From Halobacteriovoraceae bacterium (lineage in GTDB: Bacteria > Bdellovibrionota > Bacteriovoracia > Bacteriovoracales > Bacteriovoracaceae), in contig PASN01000009.1 of assembly GCA_002711995.1 (NCBI GenBank), forward strand, positions 305,019 to 369,018: a stretch of DNA of 64,000 nt. Reading direction: 5' to 3'. Numbering within the stretch: position 1 is the first letter of the stretch; the number at the start of each line of letters is the position of its first letter. Below the pieces are notes generated by a model. That model had not been told where the DNA came from. It did no database searches and worked only from the letters and a program-made list of their open reading frames with translations. Positions 1,102 through 12,109 of the stretch are shown one piece after another. Made by a program: the position numbers and the translations under genes.

Positions 1102-1581
1102 ATGTCACGCTTTGTATCTATCCTACTATTATTACTATCCTTCCCCCTAAAGGCCGAGGTTCCCAAAGGTTGGAATTTGGTAAGAAGTGACTTAGGTGTT
1201 GAGGTTTGGCTTAAAGAATCAAATCACAATATCACTGCATCCATTGAAATTGAAAAGGCCAAAAATCAATTAACCTGGAGCTCTGTGAACAACACAGAGT
1301 ATTTTAAGACTTTGACCAAATCTAAGAAAAAACAGCTTAGCCTAATAGGTATCCGAAATTGGAAATCGTCCGACTACAGATGGGTGGAGGGACCAAAATC
1401 AAAACAGCTTATAGTGAGAGGTAGCTATACAGATCCCTCCAATAGAAAAATTCATTTTCTAGAGGTTCATACCTTCTTCACCACATTCAATAAACGAGTC
1501 TTGCATACTTGGCCCACCGACTCCAAGGAGTCTGCGGAAATAGTGGAGTACCTTAATAAAAAAGAGTTGGACGATGACTAA
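1102..1581 (+). CDS. Secreted protein of unknown function
   Basis: 159 residues with a clear signal peptide (FVSILLLLLSFPLKA, cleavage near residue 18). The mature part begins VPKGWNLVRSDLGVEVWLKE and is rich in aromatic and charged residues, with no cysteine, which fits a small soluble periplasmic or exported protein. I recognise no catalytic motif; the general look recalls small lipid-binding (START-like) folds, but that is only an impression. The last eight bases overlap the next gene, so the two are almost certainly cotranslated. The TonB pair upstream is on the opposite strand, so the 115-base gap before this gene holds two divergent promoters. Confidence 0.7.
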   Translation: MSRFVSILLLLLSFPLKAEVPKGWNLVRSDLGVEVWLKESNHNITASIEIEKAKNQLTWSSVNNTEYFKTLTKSKKKQLSLIGIRNWKSSDYRWVEGPKSKQLIVRGSYTDPSNRKIHFLEVHTFFTTFNKRVLHTWPTDSKESAEIVEYLNKKELDDD

Positions 1582-2851
1582 ATTCAATGTCTTCATTCTA
1601 AGTATTCAATTTTTCTTTTTCAGCTCATTTTCCCATGCTCAAAGCTCTTTTCTCACAGACCCAACAGTAAGGCCGACCGTAGACGCTTATCAAGCCATTT
1701 GTGGGCCTCAACTTCCTATGGACTACCAAGCACCAGAAGAGTTGAAGAACCTATGCAGGGTCGTAAGTAAAAGTGAGCTCTGCAAAGAGGTGGCAAAGGA
1801 AAACCTTATAAACTGCCACTCCTTTGGCGAGTGGAAGAAGTTGAATATATGGGACTTTTTTCAAGGTTGCGCTTCGGGAGTTTTTAACTCAATAGAAGAA
1901 ATCTTAAGCTTCACATGGGAAGCAATGCAATGGGTATGGAGTCATTCCACCTCCAAAGAAACAAGACAAGAAAGCCTAGGTCAAGCGAAAGAATATTCAA
2001 AGATGGCCAAGCTCTACCTTCATACAGAATACGAAAAAGCTTACCAAACATCCTCTGATCCTTTTAAAAGTATCAAGGCCTTGAAGAAGATAGCCCAAAG
2101 CCTTGGAAGAATGCTGATGGACTCTATCATGGACATGGCCAGTAAAGAGTATCACCAACTAGGTTGTTTAAACTACAAGGCAAAATCAGAGACAATTTGC
2201 CAACTAGTGGGAAGTATCTTTCTTCCACCCGCAGGCGCTTTGATGTTGCTAAAGCATGGCCCTCAGGCAGTGAAAAAGATCAAGTCTGTTTCAGAAGAAC
2301 TTATTTCCCTGAAAAAACTAAAACATCTTTCAGCAGAGGAAAAGAAAATTGCCAAGCTCCTGAATAAGAAACCAAAGAAACTTAAGGGGCTACAGGGAGC
2401 AAGCGGCAATGACTATGTCACAAAGGACATGAAGGTCGACTACCATGGCGAAGAAGATGGAAAAGTCTTTCACATGAAGGTCCAGTACTTTAGTGATGCT
2501 GAAAGAGAGAATGCAAAAGTTTTTGTTAATGATGGAAAGTTGGTTACCAAAGATGGTGTGCCTCTCTCGCAAGAGATGATTGGCATATATGTGATGGATG
2601 AAATGGGAGGAATCTATGTCTTGCCAGAAAGTGTTATTGGAAGAATTCATCATTCTACTTTATTGGCCGGTCGTCCTGTTGCGGCAGCAGGCCACATGCG
2701 AATAGTTGACGGCAAGATCACTTACATTGACAATAGGTCGGGCCACTACCAACCAAGCCCCGATATGCTTCAACAGGTTATTAAGGAGTTGAAATTAAGA
2801 GGGGCAGACACTCAAGATGCTGACTTTAAACTAATGAACACAGGTGATTAA
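1574..2851 (+). CDS. Secreted protein with an IQM-like C-terminal domain
   Basis: 425 residues. Residues 1-22 are a signal peptide ending SSFSHAQ. The N-terminal half has several cysteines (for example CGPQLP, CRVVSKSELC), typical of a disulphide-bonded exported protein, then a helical lysine-rich stretch at about 235-270. The C-terminal part (about 270-415) carries HHSTLLAGRPVAAAGHM near residue 359 and DNRSGHYQPSP near 387. From memory, the same paired signature (HSSFLAG...AAG, then SGHY.P) is found in plant IQM proteins and in some bacterial effectors. No biochemical activity is established for it as far as I know. The gene overlaps the preceding secreted gene by 8 bases and abuts the next one directly, so it is the middle gene of a three-gene operon. 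Real gene: sure; C-terminal relationship: moderate. Confidence 0.75.
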   Translation: MTKFNVFILSIQFFFFSSFSHAQSSFLTDPTVRPTVDAYQAICGPQLPMDYQAPEELKNLCRVVSKSELCKEVAKENLINCHSFGEWKKLNIWDFFQGCASGVFNSIEEILSFTWEAMQWVWSHSTSKETRQESLGQAKEYSKMAKLYLHTEYEKAYQTSSDPFKSIKALKKIAQSLGRMLMDSIMDMASKEYHQLGCLNYKAKSETICQLVGSIFLPPAGALMLLKHGPQAVKKIKSVSEELISLKKLKHLSAEEKKIAKLLNKKPKKLKGLQGASGNDYVTKDMKVDYHGEEDGKVFHMKVQYFSDAERENAKVFVNDGKLVTKDGVPLSQEMIGIYVMDEMGGIYVLPESVIGRIHHSTLLAGRPVAAAGHMRIVDGKITYIDNRSGHYQPSPDMLQQVIKELKLRGADTQDADFKLMNTGD

Positions 2852-3115
2852 GTGGAAAAACGAATTCAATTTTTAAGGGTTTTTCTTTATCACTTTCTAA
2901 ACCTTGATGAAGTGACACCTAATTTCCCCACCTTCTTTATTAATTACATGGAAAGCAACTACTCTCTTGAAGAACGAAAAGAAATTTTATCGTCATTGAC
3001 CTGGGCCTTAAATCAGAAAGATTTAAACTTTCCCGACCTATTAAGAGGGATTACCATTTCGAATGTGCAAATAAAATTAGAGATTGAAAAAGTCTTACAG
3101 CTTGCACAGCCTTAA
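2852..3115 (+). CDS. Small conserved-looking protein, unknown function
   Basis: 87 residues starting at a GTG that touches the TAA of the preceding gene with no gap, so translation probably depends on coupling. There is no signal peptide or membrane segment. The protein is mixed helical (EKRIQFLRVFLYHFLNLDEV near the N-terminus) and might be a cytoplasmic partner of the secreted proteins encoded upstream. I do not recognise a family. The coding character (low-G+C third positions, no internal stop, coupled start) supports a real gene. Confidence 0.55.
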   Translation: MEKRIQFLRVFLYHFLNLDEVTPNFPTFFINYMESNYSLEERKEILSSLTWALNQKDLNFPDLLRGITISNVQIKLEIEKVLQLAQP

Positions 3116-3347: not shown

Positions 3348-4031
3348 ATGAAAACTAAAAGCAAAATAGTTCTTCTATGCTTTATGCTTTTTTTAACTAT
3401 TGGTTGTGGACTGAATTTCGATATGGAAGAAGAACCTTTCACTGCAAAGTTAACGCCTAAAGCTGACACCTTTCTCAATGGGAATAGCGATATAAACGTA
3501 AGTAAAACCAAATTAAACTTATACACTTGGCCAGATTATACAAGAGCGAACACGATAGTCATGCAATTCGAGCTTCCTGAATTAAAGGGAAGAGTAGTGA
3601 AAAAGGCCAAGTTAAACTTGTACCTCACGGAGGCCACACACACCTGGTGCAGTGACCCTGCACCAGAAGCATACAGAGTCCAAGTCAACAAACTAATAAA
3701 CTTTAAACCAGACCTCTCTGTCGCAAGCGGGGAAACTTATGATGGAGTGAATTCTTGGACAGCATGCACCTTTTGCAATAATACAACCTACTCTATTGCC
3801 GACAACGATGTTGATGGTCCTTATGACATTCAAATTTTGGATCAAAACCTTGGGTGGAAAGAGTGGGATGTCACAGATATGGTTCAAGAATGGGCAGATG
3901 CTCCTAGTTCAAACTTTGGCCTGGCACTTTTCTCGGATGAAACAAAAACAAAAAACTGTCAGAGAATTTTTGCAAGTTCGGAGCACGCAGACCAAGGAAA
4001 ACGTCCATATTTAACAATCCAAGTTGAATAA
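3348..4031 (+). CDS. DNRLRE-type lipoprotein
   Basis: 227 residues. A lipoprotein signal peptide with lipobox LTIGC puts the lipidated cysteine at residue 20. The mature protein is one beta-rich domain: it opens with KADTFLNGNSDINVSKTKLN, has the VMQFELP and KKAKLNLYL strands, and ends with DVTDMVQEWADAPSSNFGLA and RPYLTIQVE. This is the pattern of the DNRLRE / disaggregatase-related domain (CBM96 relatives), a surface beta-sandwich that is often carbohydrate-binding. Four cysteines at about 105-150 could form disulphides. Probably anchored in the outer membrane; a substrate cannot be named. It is monocistronic, with its own -10 box and a downstream hairpin terminator. Confidence 0.75.
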   Translation: MKTKSKIVLLCFMLFLTIGCGLNFDMEEEPFTAKLTPKADTFLNGNSDINVSKTKLNLYTWPDYTRANTIVMQFELPELKGRVVKKAKLNLYLTEATHTWCSDPAPEAYRVQVNKLINFKPDLSVASGETYDGVNSWTACTFCNNTTYSIADNDVDGPYDIQILDQNLGWKEWDVTDMVQEWADAPSSNFGLALFSDETKTKNCQRIFASSEHADQGKRPYLTIQVE

Positions 4032-4085: not shown

Positions 4086-5039
4086 CTATATTGACTGAAC
4101 CAGCATGCCACCAACACTCAAACTATAAATACCAAGCAATACCCCTAAAGATATTCTGTCTACCTTGATAATTTTATCACGAAGGTGCTCACCTTTTTCA
4201 AGCTTCCATGATCCCATCATTACAACAGCAAGCCCCAGTATTATGAACATGTACGTGGCAATGTAAATCTTGTCCATGAGAATGAGATAAGCAACCTCAG
4301 GAAGGTCATTGTTTAAGGTGATCTGAAGAGCGACAACAGTCAACAAGGCCGTAATCCCAACCCCTACTCTTGCATCAATATATTTAGGGTGAAATAAAAA
4401 CATTAAACAAGCACAGAAGACAATGCAAAAGATCGGAAGAACAAGTTTAATTAGGTAGGCAAAGATAGGCCTTTCAATCGGAACTGAAATGACAACCTTT
4501 GAATAGTTTGTTCTGTCCTTAATGGTTCGAGTGTCCCCAAAATCAGTATTATATTCTTGATTCACAAGTTCGATCTTTGGACTTTTTATCTCAAAGCCTG
4601 GAAGCTTCACGTCTGAGTCCATGCCCACTTTTCCATCATCCAGAACATACTTTGAACCTTCAGAAATATCATTGGCGGAGTCCTCAAAACTCACAACCAA
4701 CCTTTGTTTATCAAAAGGATAGTCTGCAAGATTGAATTTCTCTGAAAATCTACCTTGAATCCTTACCACCTGATATAAAGTTCCATCAGGCAGAACTTCA
4801 GGTTTATCATAAGTATTGGTAACCATATGCCCCCAAAGCTCTGAGGGGTTCATGAACTCAAAACTCTCAGCGGGGTTTAAGGACTTGTCCTTCCACTTAA
4901 ACCATATATACAGATCCATGGCATAGCTATGAGACTCAAGCTCAAGCTCTTGAATATCATTAATATAGGCACCCACCCTTACATTGGAAAAAGCAAGACA
5001 TGAGTAAAGAGCAAGAGCAGCTAATAAGATTTTTTTCAT
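4086..5039 (-). CDS. Pentameric ligand-gated ion channel homologue
   Basis: 317 residues with the architecture of the Cys-loop receptor superfamily in its bacterial form (GLIC/ELIC relatives). A signal peptide covers residues 1-18. An extracellular beta domain (about 19-190) contains YPFDKQRL at 107-114, the family's conserved (Y/F)P.D.Q.. loop. Four membrane segments follow: M1 about 193-216, M2 about 222-245 (RVGVGITALLTVVALQI, the pore helix), M3 about 250-275 and M4 about 295-315. The ectodomain has no cysteines, as expected for prokaryotic members. M1 has three (205, 209, 211). It is a single gene convergent with the lipoprotein gene. It should conduct ions in response to an unknown periplasmic ligand; ion selectivity cannot be judged safely by eye. 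Confidence 0.85.
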   Translation of the reverse strand: MKKILLAALALYSCLAFSNVRVGAYINDIQELELESHSYAMDLYIWFKWKDKSLNPAESFEFMNPSELWGHMVTNTYDKPEVLPDGTLYQVVRIQGRFSEKFNLADYPFDKQRLVVSFEDSANDISEGSKYVLDDGKVGMDSDVKLPGFEIKSPKIELVNQEYNTDFGDTRTIKDRTNYSKVVISVPIERPIFAYLIKLVLPIFCIVFCACLMFLFHPKYIDARVGVGITALLTVVALQITLNNDLPEVAYLILMDKIYIATYMFIILGLAVVMMGSWKLEKGEHLRDKIIKVDRISLGVLLGIYSLSVGGMLVQSI

Positions 5040-5244: not shown

Positions 5245-5466
5245 ATGGCAAACATTAGACAGAAATCCATTCAAGAACTTGAAAGCTGGAACTTGAAAGA
5301 GCTTCGAAAGCTTAGAATTTCCGTAAAGAACAGAATTCAAAGCCTTGAATTCTCAAAAAAGCCGAAAGAATTGCCAAGCTCCCACCCACTTTCACAAATG
5401 GGTGTTGAAGAATGCAAAAACCTTCTTCAGAAAGTACAAAAAGCCGAAAGAGACTTAGTTAAGTAA
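5245..5466 (+). CDS. Small cytoplasmic helical protein, unknown function
   Basis: 73 residues, almost entirely helical and charged (KSIQELESWNLKELRKLRIS; ECKNLLQKVQKAERDLVK at the end), with no signal peptide. It has its own promoter-like sequence (5186-5214). It looks like a small coiled-coil or adaptor protein; no family recognised. A hairpin-like inverted repeat (5511-5532) lies downstream but lacks a T run. Confidence 0.6.
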   Translation: MANIRQKSIQELESWNLKELRKLRISVKNRIQSLEFSKKPKELPSSHPLSQMGVEECKNLLQKVQKAERDLVK

Positions 5467-5591: not shown

Positions 5592-6929
5592 ATGAAAAAT
5601 ATCTTTTTGCTTGGTTCAGATGACTTCAACCTTGAACTTTTAAAAGAGCTAGACCAAGAGGGCGAGCTTAAGTTTCACAAACTTTACGACTACGAATTTG
5701 CAAAAGAGCAAGAATTGATACCAATCCAAGAGCTGCACCTTGGTGGAGTAAAAAGACTTCGAGACTTTGAGGGTTCAGTAGACGCTATCGTTGGAATTTG
5801 GGACTTCCCTATAAGCACGATGTTACCTCTACTTAGGGCCCCTTTTAACCTTCCATCCCCAAGCCTTGACGCTGTATTGAAGTGTGAGCATAAATATTGG
5901 TCTAGGATTGAGCAAAAGAAGATAATTCCTCGACATATCCCCGAGTTTTGCGCAATTGATCCGTTCTCTGAAGATTACAAATCTCAAATAAAGGTTAAAT
6001 ACCCATACTGGTTAAAACCTGTAAAATCTGTTGCTTCTCATCTTGGATTTAAAATTTCCAACGAGCGGGATCTGGAACATGCAATTCAAGAAATAAGAGA
6101 AAAACTCCCCCGTTTCTCACGTCCTTTCAATTACCTCCTTCAATTTGCAAACATGCCAAAAGAAGTTGAGAAGATCGATGGCAACTACTGTCTTGTGGAA
6201 AGCATCATATCAGAAGGAGAGCAGTGCACCTTGGAAGGCTATGTATCAAAGGGAGAGGTTTTCACCTATGGTGTAATTGATTCCAAGAGGGAGGGCAAAC
6301 ACCGCTCCAGCCTCACAAGCTATAGGTATCCCTCAGTGCTTCCCACTGAAGTTCAAACTCGAATGAAAAAATTAACTCAAAAGTTTTTTAATCAAATCAA
6401 GTATGACCAGGGCGCATTTAATATTGAGTTTTTCTGGAACCGTAAAAGTGATGAGATATTCCTTTTAGAGGCAAACACTCGAATATCAAAATCTCATAGT
6501 CCTCTTTTTAAAGCTGTGGATGGAGAATACCACAATAGGATAATGGTGGACTTAAGTCTTGGCCGGCGAATTAGCTTTCCCCACAGAAAAGGCAAGCACA
6601 AGGTGGCGGCCAAGTTTATGTGGAGGGCATACGAGGATGCTTTTGTGGAAGAGCTTCCAACCCAGTCACAGATAGAGGAGTTGGAACTCGAGCATCATGC
6701 AAAAATTATTTTAACTGTTAAAAAAGGACTAAGCCTTTCTGATCTAGTCGAACAAGATAGCTACAGTTTCGAGCTTGCAAATATCTTTATTGGCGGTGAT
6801 ACCTTTGACCAGTTGGAGCAAAGCTATCAATCAATAATTAAAAAGCTGAGCGCTCATTTACGCTTTGTGAAGAAAAGGATTTCATCATGGAATACACAAA
6901 CCACCTCCCCTTCACAGTCCGTCATATAG
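5592..6929 (+). CDS. ATP-grasp domain ligase
   Basis: 445 residues. I chose the ATG at 5592 because GGAGG at 5582-5586 is correctly spaced for it; a GTG at 5580 would place that site inside the gene. ATP-grasp features are YWLKPVKSVASHLGF (nucleotide-binding lysine), CTLEGYVSKGEVFTYGVID in the central sheet, and FNIEFFW followed by FLLEANTRIS, the acidic/Asn magnesium site. Such enzymes join a carboxylate, activated as acyl-phosphate, to an amine or thiol. The substrate is unknown; it resembles the D-Ala-D-Ala-ligase/carbamoyl-phosphate branch more than RimK. The 3' end overlaps the next hydrolase gene by 43 bases, so the two are coupled, which suggests that one makes and the other cuts an amide bond. 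Confidence 0.8.
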   Translation: MKNIFLLGSDDFNLELLKELDQEGELKFHKLYDYEFAKEQELIPIQELHLGGVKRLRDFEGSVDAIVGIWDFPISTMLPLLRAPFNLPSPSLDAVLKCEHKYWSRIEQKKIIPRHIPEFCAIDPFSEDYKSQIKVKYPYWLKPVKSVASHLGFKISNERDLEHAIQEIREKLPRFSRPFNYLLQFANMPKEVEKIDGNYCLVESIISEGEQCTLEGYVSKGEVFTYGVIDSKREGKHRSSLTSYRYPSVLPTEVQTRMKKLTQKFFNQIKYDQGAFNIEFFWNRKSDEIFLLEANTRISKSHSPLFKAVDGEYHNRIMVDLSLGRRISFPHRKGKHKVAAKFMWRAYEDAFVEELPTQSQIEELELEHHAKIILTVKKGLSLSDLVEQDSYSFELANIFIGGDTFDQLEQSYQSIIKKLSAHLRFVKKRISSWNTQTTSPSQSVI

Positions 6930-8929
6930 AAAATACATGGATAACTATGAATGACGGCGTTCGGTTGGCCGCTCGAATTTGGCTGCCGGAAAACGCGGAA
7001 AATCAACCGGTACCAGCTATATTGGAATACATCCCCTATAGAAAAAGGGATGGTGTCAGGCAAAGAGATGACATTATGAATCCTTATATCGCAGGCCATG
7101 GCTACGCGTGTGTCCGGGTCGATATAAGAGGCAGTGGCGATTCCGAAGGTATTCTCCATGACGAATATCTTCAGCAAGAACTTGATGATGGAGTTTCCAT
7201 TATTGAGTGGCTTGCTGAGCAAGTTTGGTGCGACGGCAATGTGGGTATGATAGGAATTTCTTGGGGGGGATTCAATGGACTTCAAATTGCCCACATGCAA
7301 CCACCAAACCTTAAGGCCGTAATCAGCGCATGTTCAACAGATGATCGCTATGCGGATGATGTTCACTATATGGGTGGCTGTCTTCTTGGAGACAATCTCT
7401 CATGGGCGTCCACGATGTTTTCTTACAACTCCCTTCCCCCTGACCCTGAAATTGTTGGCAGCAAGTGGAGAAAGATGTGGAAACACAGGCTAGAGGCCTG
7501 CGACTTGTGGCTAGAGAAGTGGCTTAAACACCAACATAGAGATGAATATTGGAAGCATGGATCTATTTGTGAAGATTTCACAAAAATAAATATTCCGGTC
7601 ATGGCCGTAAGTGGTTGGGCCGACGGCTATTCCAACGCAGTGTTCAGATTATTGGAAAATCTGGATGTTCCTAGACTAGGTCTTATCGGCCCTTGGAGTC
7701 ATATGTACCCTCACTTGGGAGTCCCGGGGCCAGCGATTGGTTTTTTACAAGAATGTTTGCGCTGGTGGGACAAGTGGCTCAAAGGAAGAGAGACCGGTAT
7801 TATGGACGAGCCAATGCTCAGAGTTTGGATGCTTGAAAGCATGCCTCCCTCAACCTTCTACCATCAGCGTTTTGGACAATGGGCAAGTGAAGAAAAATGG
7901 CCGCCAGAGGAAAAAACACATTTGGAGTATCAACTTCAAGAGTTTCAACTTGTGCCTAAGGATCAAGCTGTGGGACAGCATGAAATAGCCTTGCAATCTC
8001 CACTCAGCAATGGCCTTTTGGCTGGAAAGTGGTGTTCATATAGTGCGACACCGGATTTACCCCACGATCAAAGAGAAGAAGATGGTGGAGCAATCGTTTT
8101 TAATGGTCCCCCTCTTGAGGAATCAGTTCAAATACTTGGCGCACCCGAGGTTGAATTGGAACTTGCAGCAAATCGTCCAGTCGCCATGGTGGCCGTGAGG
8201 CTTTCAGATATGCGTCCTGACAATAAAGTCACCCGGGTGACATATGGAATACTCAATCTCACCCACAGAGAAGGACATGAGGAACCAAAAGAGCTGGAGC
8301 CCGGCAAGTTCTACAAAGTAAAAATTCAATTAAACGGGATCGCTCAGAACTTCCCTAAGGGGCACAGAATAAGGATTGCAATTTCATCCTCCTACTTCCC
8401 CCTCGCCTGGCCTGCTCCAGAGTCAACTCAACTAAGAATAAAGACCAAAGGCTGTGGTCTCACTCTTCCTGTTCATAAACCAAAAATTGAAAAGATTTAC
8501 TTTGAACGTCCTGAGGGAGCGGCTCCGGGTAAAGTTATTCAAGAGAAAGAGGGACAACACAACTGGTTTGTCAAAAGAGACTTGGCCAAAGACCAGGCCA
8601 TGCTGGAGGTGGTGGATGACCATGGTGTTTATCAGATCGAAGATATCAAAACAAAAGTTCTTAGAAAGTGCAGAGAGTATTACTCCTACAAGGGTGACAA
8701 CTTTCAATCCGCTAAAGGCGAGACATGTTGGGAGCGGGGTTTTGAAAGAAAGGACTGGTGTGTAAGAACAGTAACCAAAACAGTGCTTACATGTGATAAA
8801 AATTATTTTTACATCAACGCTGAGCTTGATGCTTATGAAAAAGAGCGAAGAGTCTTTTCAAGAAATTTCACAAAAAAAAATAAAAAGAAACCTCGTTTAA
8901 GAAGTAGAGTGCGCCTTCACAAATCTTAG
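6887..8929 (+). CDS. CocE/NonD-family alpha/beta hydrolase (X-Pro dipeptidyl-peptidase-like)
   Basis: 680 residues, the usual length for this family plus a 70-100 residue extension. The alpha/beta hydrolase domain shows the nucleophile elbow GISWGG (Ser125), the acid in SGWADGY (Asp246) and the histidine in GPWSHMYPH (His272). The N-terminus, MNDGVRLAARIWLP, and the oxyanion-tyrosine region EYIPYRK are typical. The C-terminal jelly-roll domain (about 340-560) is followed by an unusual basic tail ending KKNKKKPRLRSRVRLHKS. No signal peptide. The family hydrolyses esters and amides (cocaine esterase, cephalosporin acylases, X-Pro peptidases). The start has AAGGAT eight bases upstream and overlaps the ATP-grasp gene by 43 bases. 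Confidence 0.85.
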   Translation: MEYTNHLPFTVRHIENTWITMNDGVRLAARIWLPENAENQPVPAILEYIPYRKRDGVRQRDDIMNPYIAGHGYACVRVDIRGSGDSEGILHDEYLQQELDDGVSIIEWLAEQVWCDGNVGMIGISWGGFNGLQIAHMQPPNLKAVISACSTDDRYADDVHYMGGCLLGDNLSWASTMFSYNSLPPDPEIVGSKWRKMWKHRLEACDLWLEKWLKHQHRDEYWKHGSICEDFTKINIPVMAVSGWADGYSNAVFRLLENLDVPRLGLIGPWSHMYPHLGVPGPAIGFLQECLRWWDKWLKGRETGIMDEPMLRVWMLESMPPSTFYHQRFGQWASEEKWPPEEKTHLEYQLQEFQLVPKDQAVGQHEIALQSPLSNGLLAGKWCSYSATPDLPHDQREEDGGAIVFNGPPLEESVQILGAPEVELELAANRPVAMVAVRLSDMRPDNKVTRVTYGILNLTHREGHEEPKELEPGKFYKVKIQLNGIAQNFPKGHRIRIAISSSYFPLAWPAPESTQLRIKTKGCGLTLPVHKPKIEKIYFERPEGAAPGKVIQEKEGQHNWFVKRDLAKDQAMLEVVDDHGVYQIEDIKTKVLRKCREYYSYKGDNFQSAKGETCWERGFERKDWCVRTVTKTVLTCDKNYFYINAELDAYEKERRVFSRNFTKKNKKKPRLRSRVRLHKS

Positions 8930-8970: not shown

Positions 8971-9717
8971 ATGAAGGTTTTAATTCCTCTTCCAAGAAAA
9001 GACTTTGACCCAAGCGAGGTTGTAATACCTTGGAGCATCCTTCGAACGGGGGGTCAGATTGTCTTTGCAACCCCAGACGGGGTTAGATCGGTGCCAGACA
9101 GACATACCTTAACAGGGGAAGGCCTAGGGATTCTTACTCCAGTGCTTAGAGCAGATAAAAGAATTCAACACGCTCTCAAAGAAATGATGGACACTCATTA
9201 CTTTCACCATCCGATAACCTATGAAGAGGCGCTCAATTCAGAATTCGATGGAATCATTCTTCCCGGAGGACACGCTGGCGGCATTAAAGAGTACCTTGAT
9301 TCCGAGATCTTACAAAAAATAATTTCCAATCATATGGAGAAGAGAAGGCCAATAGGAGCGATTTGCCAAGCGGTTCTTTTGCTTGCTCGAAGTAAGGGTT
9401 CAAAGTCTGTCTCTGTCATTCACAACAAGAAAGTCACTGCCCTGCCAAAGATTGCAGAAAAAATCACTAATAAACTAATCAATAAAAGCTTTGTAAAAGA
9501 TTTCAAGTCCCCAATAAAATCTAGTATTGAGGATGAAGTTAAAAGTGTTTTAGAAAATGAAAAACAACAATTTAGCCCAGGCCCTCCCCTCTTGGTTAAG
9601 GACTCGCTTTCTAGACTGTGGGCCGGACATGTGGTGAGAGACGAGAACTTAGTTACAGCGAGATGGGCGGGTGATGCCCATCGCTTTGCAATGGAATTTA
9701 AAGAAATGCTTTTATAG
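8971..9717 (+). CDS. DJ-1/PfpI family protein
   Basis: 248 residues. The class I glutamine-amidotransferase-like fold is shown by FDGIILPGGHAGG near residue 92 and the nucleophile elbow IGAICQAVLLLAR with Cys132. The C-terminal VTARWAGDAHRFAMEFKEML is the usual family ending. Members act as glyoxalases, deglycases, chaperones or small hydrolases; which one applies here is open. About 50 residues (roughly 145-205, lysine-rich) are inserted between the elbow and the last sheet, longer than in the compact family members. It is the third gene of the plus-strand run with the ATP-grasp and CocE genes, 41 bases after the latter, and faces the AstE-like gene with a 4-base gap. Confidence 0.8.
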   Translation: MKVLIPLPRKDFDPSEVVIPWSILRTGGQIVFATPDGVRSVPDRHTLTGEGLGILTPVLRADKRIQHALKEMMDTHYFHHPITYEEALNSEFDGIILPGGHAGGIKEYLDSEILQKIISNHMEKRRPIGAICQAVLLLARSKGSKSVSVIHNKKVTALPKIAEKITNKLINKSFVKDFKSPIKSSIEDEVKSVLENEKQQFSPGPPLLVKDSLSRLWAGHVVRDENLVTARWAGDAHRFAMEFKEMLL

Positions 9718-9721
9718 AAGT

Positions 9722-10774
9722 CTAATCAATATCAGCTTGTGGATAAATGAACCCTCTTTTCTTCAATTCCCTTTTATTCAATCTTTCAACTGTAGCTAAA
9801 TGAATGATTGCTTCACCCAGCGTTACAAGAGGCAGGTTGTTAACACCGATTACAATGCCATCCTCAGGCGTTGTAACTTCTATTTCGACATCTCCCAGCA
9901 GGTCTAAAATTAGAGCAACGGTCTGACCTTTCTTTACATAACTTCCAAGTTTGACAGACATTCGGACCGTGCCGCTATTAGGCGCTCTTAGCCAAAAGCT
10001 ATCTTGCGCAACTATTGAGTCATACTTGGTAGTTTCAACTTTTTCTTCATCGATCATGCCGATATTGCTCATAGCGGCCAGCGTTCCCCGCACTCCCATG
10101 GAGATAACATCATTTTCAAAACGAAGGGCCTGACCACCTTCAAATAGAAGAATGTTTACCTTCTTCTTTCTTGCAGCTTCCCTTAAAGAGCCATCCCTCA
10201 TATGAGAATCAATCATAATTGGAGCATTGAATGAAGTAGCAAAATCTTTTGTGGCCTGATTGTCTAGTGATGCTCTAATTTGCGGAAAGTTTGATCTATG
10301 GATTGCTCCTGTATGAAAATCAATCCCATGGGTGCACTTGCTGACTATTTCTTTCATAAATAAGTGCGCAATTCTCGCAGCAAGACTTCCATGTTTCGAA
10401 CCAGGGAAGGAACGGTTTAAATCCCTTCTATCAGGGAGATATCGTGACTTATTATGAAAACCAAAGATATTGACCACAGGGATGGCAATAATTGTGCCCT
10501 TAATTTCACTTAAAAGCTCGGATTTCAAAATTTCACGGATAATTTCCACCCCATTTATCTCATCACCGTGGAGTGCGGCCGAAAGGAAGAGAACTGGCCC
10601 TTCTTTCTGTCCTCGAACAACATGAACCGGAATTTCGAGGGCCGTAAAATCATATAGCTCTGCGATTGGAAGCATAATGGTTTTTCGCTCGCCTGGAGCT
10701 ACCTTCTCGCCATTTATTGAGAATTGTTTTCTTCTTGGCACGTTCTTACCCCTTAATGATTTCCCTGCTGCCAA
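9722..10774 (-). CDS. Succinylglutamate desuccinylase/aspartoacylase family zinc deacylase
   Basis: 350 residues of the M14-like AstE/AspA family. Zinc ligands are visible as HGDE (His69, Glu72) and IDFHTGA (His154); the catalytic glutamate is Glu212 in LLFEGG. The substrate carboxylate-binding region [11 protein letters not shown] is intact. The C-terminal part (about 255-340) is a beta barrel-like domain ([20 protein letters not shown]) seen in bacterial AstE-like proteins. It should cleave N-acyl-amino acid or peptide amide bonds. It is the last gene of a RimB-RimK-AstE run, overlapping RimK by 29 bases. This combination recurs in many proteobacteria (known from memory), and the natural substrate is not settled. 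Confidence 0.85.
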
Positions 10775-11654
10775 TTGGCTTTTTTAAGGATTTTTCAGTG
10801 AACTCAATAACAAGTCCTGCTATATCTTTGCCCGTTGCCTTCTCTATTCCCTCCAAACCTGGAGATGAGTTCACTTCCAATATCAAAGGACCTCGCTTGC
10901 TCCTCAATATATCAACCCCTGAGACATTCAGTCCCATCGCCTTGGAGGCCTTTACAGCCATGGCCCTTTCTTGTGGAGTGATTTTAACCTTTTCAGCTTG
11001 CCCGCCTTGGTGGAGATTGGATCTAAACTCGCCCTCAGCACCCTGTCTTCTCATGGAAGCGACGACCTTGTCTCCAATGACAAAGCATCTTATGTCCGAA
11101 CCACCCGACTCCTCGATAAATTCTTGCACAAGAAAGTTTGAGTTCAGGTTTCTAAGCATCTCAATGACATTCTTTGCTGTTTTTTTATTTTCAACAAGAA
11201 GAACACCTTTGCCTTGTGTAGATTCAAGAATTTTAATTACACATGGTGGTCCCCCAACTAGGGAAATTAAGTCCTCAGTCATCTGAGCTGACTTTGCAAA
11301 ACCAGTGACAGGCATTCCTATCCCTTTTCGTGACATGACTTGAAGACTTCTTAACTTATCCCTAGATCGAAGAATTGCCGCTGAACTGTTTACAGGGAGT
11401 ACTCTAGCCATTTCAAACTGTCTCAATACTGCTGTTCCATAAAAAGTGATTGATGAGCCTATTCTAGGAATTACCGCCTGAAAATGGTCTAAGACTCTAT
11501 CCTTCATATGAACTTTGGGCATCGTCGTGGCGATATTCATATAGCAATGCATAGGGTTTATGACCTCTACGGTGTGCCCTCTTTGTTGGGCTGCCTCGAC
11601 TAATCTTCTAGTAGAATATAGCTTTGGTCCTTGAGAAAGTATGGCCAAGTTCAC
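10746..11654 (-). CDS. rimK: RimK-family ATP-grasp ligase
   Basis: 302 residues, close to E. coli RimK (300). Motifs in order: N-terminal [40 protein letters not shown] before the ATP-grasp lid; [18 protein letters not shown] (nucleotide-binding lysines); [20 protein letters not shown]; and [15 protein letters not shown] (metal-binding Glu and Asn). RimK adds glutamates to the C-terminus of ribosomal protein S6 and can make poly-alpha-glutamate; LysX-type relatives modify carrier proteins. The gene overlaps the RimB-like gene by 4 bases and the AstE-like gene by 29, so all three are translated together. Family certain; target not proven here. Confidence 0.88.
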
Positions 11655-12109
11655 TTTTCACTCCTTTTCTTTAATTCTTTAGACATCACAAAAGATTTGC
11701 TGGGATCCACCATGAAATCACCTCTTAAGGCCTCTCTTCCAAGAAGCATTCTAAACCCCATCATGTCCCTATTAACCAATGTGACTTCAATAACTTTAAC
11801 ATGTTCTCCAATTTTTAGCTTGGTAAGAATAACTGGCCGCACACTTGAAATACCGTTGGAACTTTTTACTTTTCTATGTTCAATCACTTCGGCTTTTGCT
11901 TCCAACTCCGGCCTTGAGCTCTTTTGCTTTGGGTGAATCGTAAAGTGAGCAAATTCTTTGTTTTTTCTTTTATAAATTTTAATTTCCGACACATGTAGAG
12001 AAGAGGTTCTTGCCCCAGTATCGACTTTGACTTTTATTGCATCAACTCCAAGTTGCGGCAGCTGAGCAAATTCTCTCCACCCAATAATATCTAAAGTTTT
12101 TTTCCTCAT
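11651..12109 (-). CDS. RimB-like retropepsin-fold protease (ATP-dependent zinc protease family)
   Basis: 152 residues, matching the Pfam Zn_protease / RimB family in length and in the key motif [12 protein letters not shown] near residue 28, an Asp-Thr-Gly active site of retropepsin type. The later [20 protein letters not shown] is the family's C-terminal signature. In Pseudomonas, RimB works with RimK to control S6 glutamylation. It is the first gene of the minus-strand run and overlaps rimK by an ATGA junction. The historic family name suggests zinc and ATP, but only the aspartate motif can be seen here. Confidence 0.82.

Follow-up and report, generated by a model that had tools for sequence, protein, structure and literature searches.

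The locus on the reverse strand at positions 4086-5039 of the window, i.e. the whole 64,000-nucleotide stretch of DNA analysed here, raises the question of which kind of receptor this Halobacteriovoraceae bacterium encodes and which stimulus might open it. Only a minority of bacterial pentameric ligand-gated ion channels (pLGICs) have a known natural ligand and cellular role. A first-pass annotation made from the letters alone had assigned the gene to the nicotinic-receptor superfamily, and this assignment stands: the boundaries of the open reading frame are exact, all signatures are present, and the E values lie far beyond chance. The frame begins with ATG and is open over all 317 codons, and the gene occurs once in the searched 3.70 Mb host genome. 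Table 1 lists its features.

Among solved structures, the best sequence match is a GLIC-GABA-A chimera (E = 3e-17); family-profile matches to GLIC and ELIC chains reach E values of 1e-32 to 1e-35, and an HHalign comparison with a GLIC/ELIC-type set gives E of about 1e-38. The Pfam ligand-binding domain scores above its cut-off (31.2 vs 26 bits) and the Pfam membrane domain just below its own (24.7 vs 28.1 bits). The AlphaFold2 monomer model, which is based on a 41-row alignment (pLDDT 92.8, pTM 0.83), consists of a beta sandwich followed by four helices, M1 (residues 192-215), M2, M3 (residues 254-282) and M4, in line with the four membrane segments recognised before. A Foldseek search with this model retrieved 1103 PDB chains with E ≤ 0.001, and all of the 50 matches listed are pLGIC chains, with GLIC (TM about 0.8) and GABA-A subunits as the best fold matches. 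From this we conclude that the product is a pLGIC subunit, a point settled as far as sequence and predicted fold are concerned; the fold assignment refers to a monomer model.

Table 1 Features of the channel gene (coordinates refer to the window, residues to the encoded protein).
Feature	Residues	Position	Strand	Basis
pLGIC subunit gene, complete (317 aa + stop)	1-317	4086..5039	-	ORF, Pfam, PDB sequence matches, copy count
Putative signal peptide: K-K, hydrophobic core, A-F-S cleavage site	1-18	4986..5039	-	sequence; helix 2-13 in model
Predicted periplasmic ligand-binding domain, short from beta2 Trp (W49) to Pro-loop	19-190	4470..4985	-	Pfam, model, alignments
Putative binding loop A, F60-E61-F62-M63-N64, by profile alignment; E61 ~ ELIC Glu77 / GLIC Arg77	60-64	4848..4862	-	HHalign
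Pro-loop signature YPFD (YPFDKQRL = 107-114)	107-110	4710..4721	-	sequence, clade alignment
E119, putative binding loop B; aligned ungapped from Pro-loop with ELIC Glu131	119	4683..4685	-	clade alignment
Putative loop C; clade motif Y-x-T-x-F-G (Y163, F167, G168), aromatic Y179	161-179	4503..4559	-	alignments
Pre-M1 Arg, salt-bridge partner of Pro-loop Asp across superfamily	190	4470..4472	-	clade alignment
Predicted M2 pore helix; P247 (23') follows	221-245	4305..4379	-	AlphaFold2, alignment
Predicted M4 helix, after short M3-M4 link as in other prokaryotic members	284-316	4092..4190	-	AlphaFold2

The superfamily is defined by a Pro-loop signature, [F/Y]PxD (PMC4795631), and the YPFDKQRL motif noted earlier contains it. 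The signal peptide noted earlier (MKKILLAALALYSCLAFS/N) occupies the N-terminus. In the clade of 48 short receptors to which the gene belongs (see below), the Pro-loop P and D are kept in all members, the pre-M1 Arg in 47, Pro202 in M1 in 44 and Pro247 in the M2-M3 linker in 47. A beta9 core aromatic residue (W/F/Y) is present as F149, which is replaced by Trp in most members from Bacteroidota. Since the D110-R190 pair, the M1 and M2-M3 prolines and the Leu at the pore position 9' are all in place, the coupling machinery of the superfamily is, judged from the sequence, retained. The mature extracellular domain contains no Cys at all, and thus lacks the two Cys flanking the Pro-loop by which the animal Cys-loop receptors are recognised.

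Directly adjacent, a gene for a surface lipoprotein with a DNRLRE/CBM96-type domain (3348-4031, plus strand) converges on the channel gene across a gap of about 55 bp, and on the other side a gene on the plus strand (5245-5466) diverges from it. Because of this arrangement, the channel gene appears to be monocistronic. When 623 ORFs, taken from the loci of 44 relatives and from the window, were compared all against all, no gene family recurred beside the channel, and we therefore rejected an operon or partnership with the lipoprotein gene or any other neighbour. Hence, the earlier remark that the gene stands alone beside a lipoprotein gene describes the layout correctly, but a functional link between the two does not follow from it. 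The small divergent gene encodes a charged protein of 73 aa without a family match. A search against viral_contigs, which reaches close relatives only, gave no match that would indicate a viral origin.

The first-pass annotation overlooked two characteristics of the protein, a shortened extracellular domain and a conserved pair of Glu residues. In a maximum-likelihood tree, which was midpoint-rooted, has long branches and comprises receptors without fused sensor domains, the 48 short members group together (support 100/99) versus nine sequences of the GLIC/ELIC/Pseudomonadota type, and the window gene is the sister of a Bacteriovoracaceae copy (support 100/89). The span from the beta2 Trp to the Pro-loop covers 48-60 residues in the clade (60 in the window protein), compared to 70-84 in the seven other receptors measured (74 in GLIC, 78 in ELIC). 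All of the 48 members are short by 10-36 residues here and also lack the hWxP motif. This motif, located before strand 4, marks an animal-like bacterial subset (Tasneem et al. 2004, PMC549065), and the receptors that carry it comprise GLIC, ELIC and the animal receptors; its absence alone is not new, because the same study already implied it for other prokaryotic members.

A complete loss of binding loop A was considered and dropped, since the profile comparison assigns FEF[MV]N to loop A and locates the deletion upstream of it. In 22 of the 25 HHalign profile pairs, with posteriors of up to 0.9, the clade motif [FI]E[FI][MV]N is aligned with loop A (EIRFVN in GLIC, ALEFIN in ELIC), and the deletion would therefore affect the beta2-beta3 loop, beta3 and hWxP. 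The FEF segment (residues 60-62) forms a short strand soon after beta2 in both AlphaFold2 models, which agrees with this register without proving it. According to the three remaining profile pairs and a single HMMER alignment, the gap would instead follow W69 (Omega loop), and E61 would then sit on beta3. The shortest relative, a protein of 293 aa from an archaeon (Diapherotrites), is likewise predicted to adopt the pLGIC fold (pLDDT 93.4).

For the pore, we numbered M2 after GLIC, with P247 corresponding to 23' in both proteins, which gives D222 at -2', R224 at 0', G226 at 2', T230 at 6', L233 at 9', A237 at 13', I240 at 16', T241 at 17' and N244 at 20'. The M2 described previously as hydroxyl-lined thus offers a single hydroxyl level in the lower pore, at 6', compared to Thr 2' and Ser 6' in GLIC; Bacteroidota members carry Ser at 2' and Gly at 6'. 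The pore pattern itself persists in close relatives as a frame of D -2', R 0', L 9' and P 23', with D -2' and R 0' in 38/38 members of the core subclade and L 9' in 37/38. By analogy with Glu -2' of GLIC, the ring of Asp residues at -2' points to cation selectivity, and a cation flow would therefore be the likeliest current. In a few divergent short paralogues (L069, L046, L048, L050), Gly or Ala replaces Pro202 in M1 and Phe occupies 9'; one Saprospiraceae genome encodes such a paralogue (L069) together with a typical short receptor (L014).

The strongest conservation within the extracellular domain points to a ligand pocket. Five of its columns are fully invariant, i.e. E119, G23, F47 and the Pro-loop residues P108 and D110, with F47 falling inside a peptide pattern used for retrieval. 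As the relatives were fetched by peptide patterns over residues 41-48 and 60-67, conservation in these segments is partly built in and was not used alone. E119 is Glu in all of the 48 members and E61 in 46, and both positions carry Glu in all five members that were retrieved with a profile and not with a peptide pattern. Among the seven other receptors aligned, only ELIC has Glu at both positions, whereas GLIC has Arg77 and Ile131. The ELIC pocket aromatics, including the loop-D Tyr and those of loop C, are matched by Y25, Y44, Y163 and Y179, with a register uncertain by about one residue in loop C; Trp46 is additional (Val40 in ELIC) and Phe133 is lost (Ser121). Since the Glu pair and the aromatics match the pocket of ELIC, a stand-alone prokaryotic pLGIC from Erwinia/Dickeya, the position and conservation of the pair would favour a cationic, amine-type ligand. 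To our knowledge, no natural ligand has been established for ELIC itself. An agonist amine adjoins Glu77 and Glu131 in ELIC, and an Ala mutant of either residue does not respond (PMC3119659).

Taken together, we propose that the gene encodes a homopentameric, amine-gated and cation-conducting channel of the inner membrane, a reading to which we assign a probability of about 0.5. Beyond the computed findings, namely membership in the superfamily, the fold of the model, the signatures, the conserved Glu pair and purifying selection in relatives, we infer a homopentamer, cation selectivity, an amine ligand and a sensory role. A homopentamer is probable because the gene is present in a single copy, and each product would provide one subunit. 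The signal peptide would take the beta sandwich into the periplasm, and the pore would be lined by M2. The likeliest trigger would be a small cationic solute (a primary amine, diamine or amino acid), which could bind at the subunit interface between Glu61 of loop A and Glu119 of loop B, with Y25, Y44, W46, Y163 and Y179 as aromatic walls. Binding might then shift the Pro-loop/pre-M1 pair D110-R190 and Pro247, so that the pore gated at L9' opens, and the appearance of the solute would give rise to a cation current by which the cell depolarises or takes up cations. Counted against an amine are the register of E61, which rests on profile alignment, and the replacement of ELIC Phe133 by Ser121; the loci of the 44 relatives contain no conserved neighbour suggesting amine metabolism.

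An acidic and aromatic pocket would fit any cation, and Ca2+ inhibition is common across the superfamily (PMC9897478), so that the pocket might serve another cation than a simple amine (quaternary ammonium, a polyamine or Ca2+), with divalent ions closing the channel as in ELIC and DeCLIC. We consider this unlikely; at the position of ELIC Asp113, which belongs to the outer divalent site, the window protein has Lys101.

Gating by protons, i.e. acidification of the periplasm that would protonate residues at the domain interface and open a GLIC-like cation channel without an organic ligand, is a comparably improbable alternative. GLIC (Gloeobacter) is the best fold match, with an identity of about 20%, and shares with the window protein the acidic -2' ring, the prokaryotic Cys-less Pro-loop and the short M3-M4 link. 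In addition, its proton sensor Glu35 corresponds in the alignment to His37, a position held by His in most clade members. However, position 37 is occupied by Tyr, Asn, Gly or other residues in many members, which argues against a strong constraint, and the exchange E35H in GLIC reduced proton sensitivity rather than increasing it (PMC5760087). The titratable sensors named in that study, Glu35, His 11' (H235) and Glu 19' (E243), are replaced by His37, Val235 and Asn243, and it is the ligand pocket that shows the strongest conservation. GLIC-type proton gating is therefore less likely, although proton gating can use other residues. A non-conducting or degenerate receptor, in which the fold survives and the shortened domain fails to gate, or whose gene was acquired laterally and is decaying in the host genome, would be in line with the patchy distribution, the lack of shared synteny and a domain short by 10-36 residues, but is very improbable in view of an intact frame, the presence of all gating signatures and dN/dS values of 0.03-0.11 in relatives.

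These dN/dS values derive from six usable of eight pairs of relatives from Bacteroidota and gammaproteobacteria, a set outside of which the window gene lies, and indicate purifying selection and maintenance of the gene in those lineages. In comparison to the sensor-fused pLGICs of about 700 aa from Bacteroidota, which carry N-terminal sensor domains and match the profile less well (HHalign E = 1e-13 vs about 1e-38 for the GLIC/ELIC-type set), the window protein consists of the receptor alone. The loop-C motif Y-x-[TSA]-D-F-G is common to the short clade and these large receptors (L081, L083-L087), which suggests a common function of loop C. With animal GABA-A and glycine receptors, the window protein shares the fold and the Glu at the loop-B position (Glu155 in GABA-A beta2, Glu157 in the glycine receptor), but it lacks the Cys-loop cysteines and the long M3-M4 loop, and is predicted to select cations rather than anions. 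Sensor-fused architectures have been described for Cytophaga, Methanosarcina and Microbulbifer (Tasneem et al. 2004).

In summary of these comparisons, the gene is a real member of a known superfamily and belongs to a recognisable, under-annotated short clade with a testable and definite ligand prediction, i.e. a cationic amine between E61 and E119. More tentatively, and with some doubt, we suggest that this unnamed clade is a coherent group of prokaryotic pLGICs in which a common cationic ligand achieves gating through a reduced extracellular domain (without hWxP and the beta3 region). It may be the smallest receptor of the superfamily that still works, and would have been distributed as a solute-sensing channel by lateral transfer between Bdellovibrionota, Bacteroidota, Elusimicrobia, Burkholderiales and archaea. 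The clade would offer a compact receptor with which to find out how much of the extracellular domain is needed for gating.

A scan of named genomes yielded 44 relatives, which include Bacteriovoracaceae, Hydromonas duriensis (Burkholderiales), many Saprospiraceae and other Bacteroidota, a Riflebacteria genome, gammaproteobacteria, two archaea and an Elusimicrobia genome (54-58% identity). Within the host's family, 7/129 genomes have a match; in its phylum, the clade profile found 9/369, and both of the two genomes of the same genus, which are 81-82% complete, were without a match. The family of one Saprospiraceae genome showed matches in 31/199 genomes, some of which are weak and probably represent sensor-fused receptors or other paralogues. 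Such a distribution points to lateral spread combined with loss, a pattern noted for the superfamily by Tasneem et al. (PMC549065). A link to predation found no support in the comparison across genomes: the gene is commoner in the Saprospiraceae family than in the host's family or phylum and also present in archaea, and we rejected it as a predation marker. Predation by the host itself is plausible, because its family contains genomes named Halobacteriovorax and Bacteriovoracaceae. Pfam PF02931 failed as a survey tool, since it recovered only one of the nine carriers in the phylum, and most of the short or divergent members tested fail to reach the Pfam threshold for the ligand-binding domain; Pfam-based surveys will therefore undercount prokaryotic pLGICs. 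Hydromonas duriensis DSM 102852 (L012) provides a named strain in which the role of the receptor could be tested.

Two further groups of genes were observed in the window. A secreted protein of 425 aa without a match in Pfam, NCBIfam or PADLOC (1574-2851, plus strand) is directly followed, without a gap, by a GTG-start frame of 87 aa (2852-3115, plus strand), a layout reminiscent of an effector and a small partner. Genes for a DoeB/aspartoacylase-like deacylase, a RimK-type S6 glutamate ligase and a RimB-like retropepsin lie consecutively at 9722-12109 on the minus strand, adjoined by a CocE/NonD hydrolase gene (6887-8929, plus strand) and a DJ-1/PfpI-type gene (8971-9717, plus strand).
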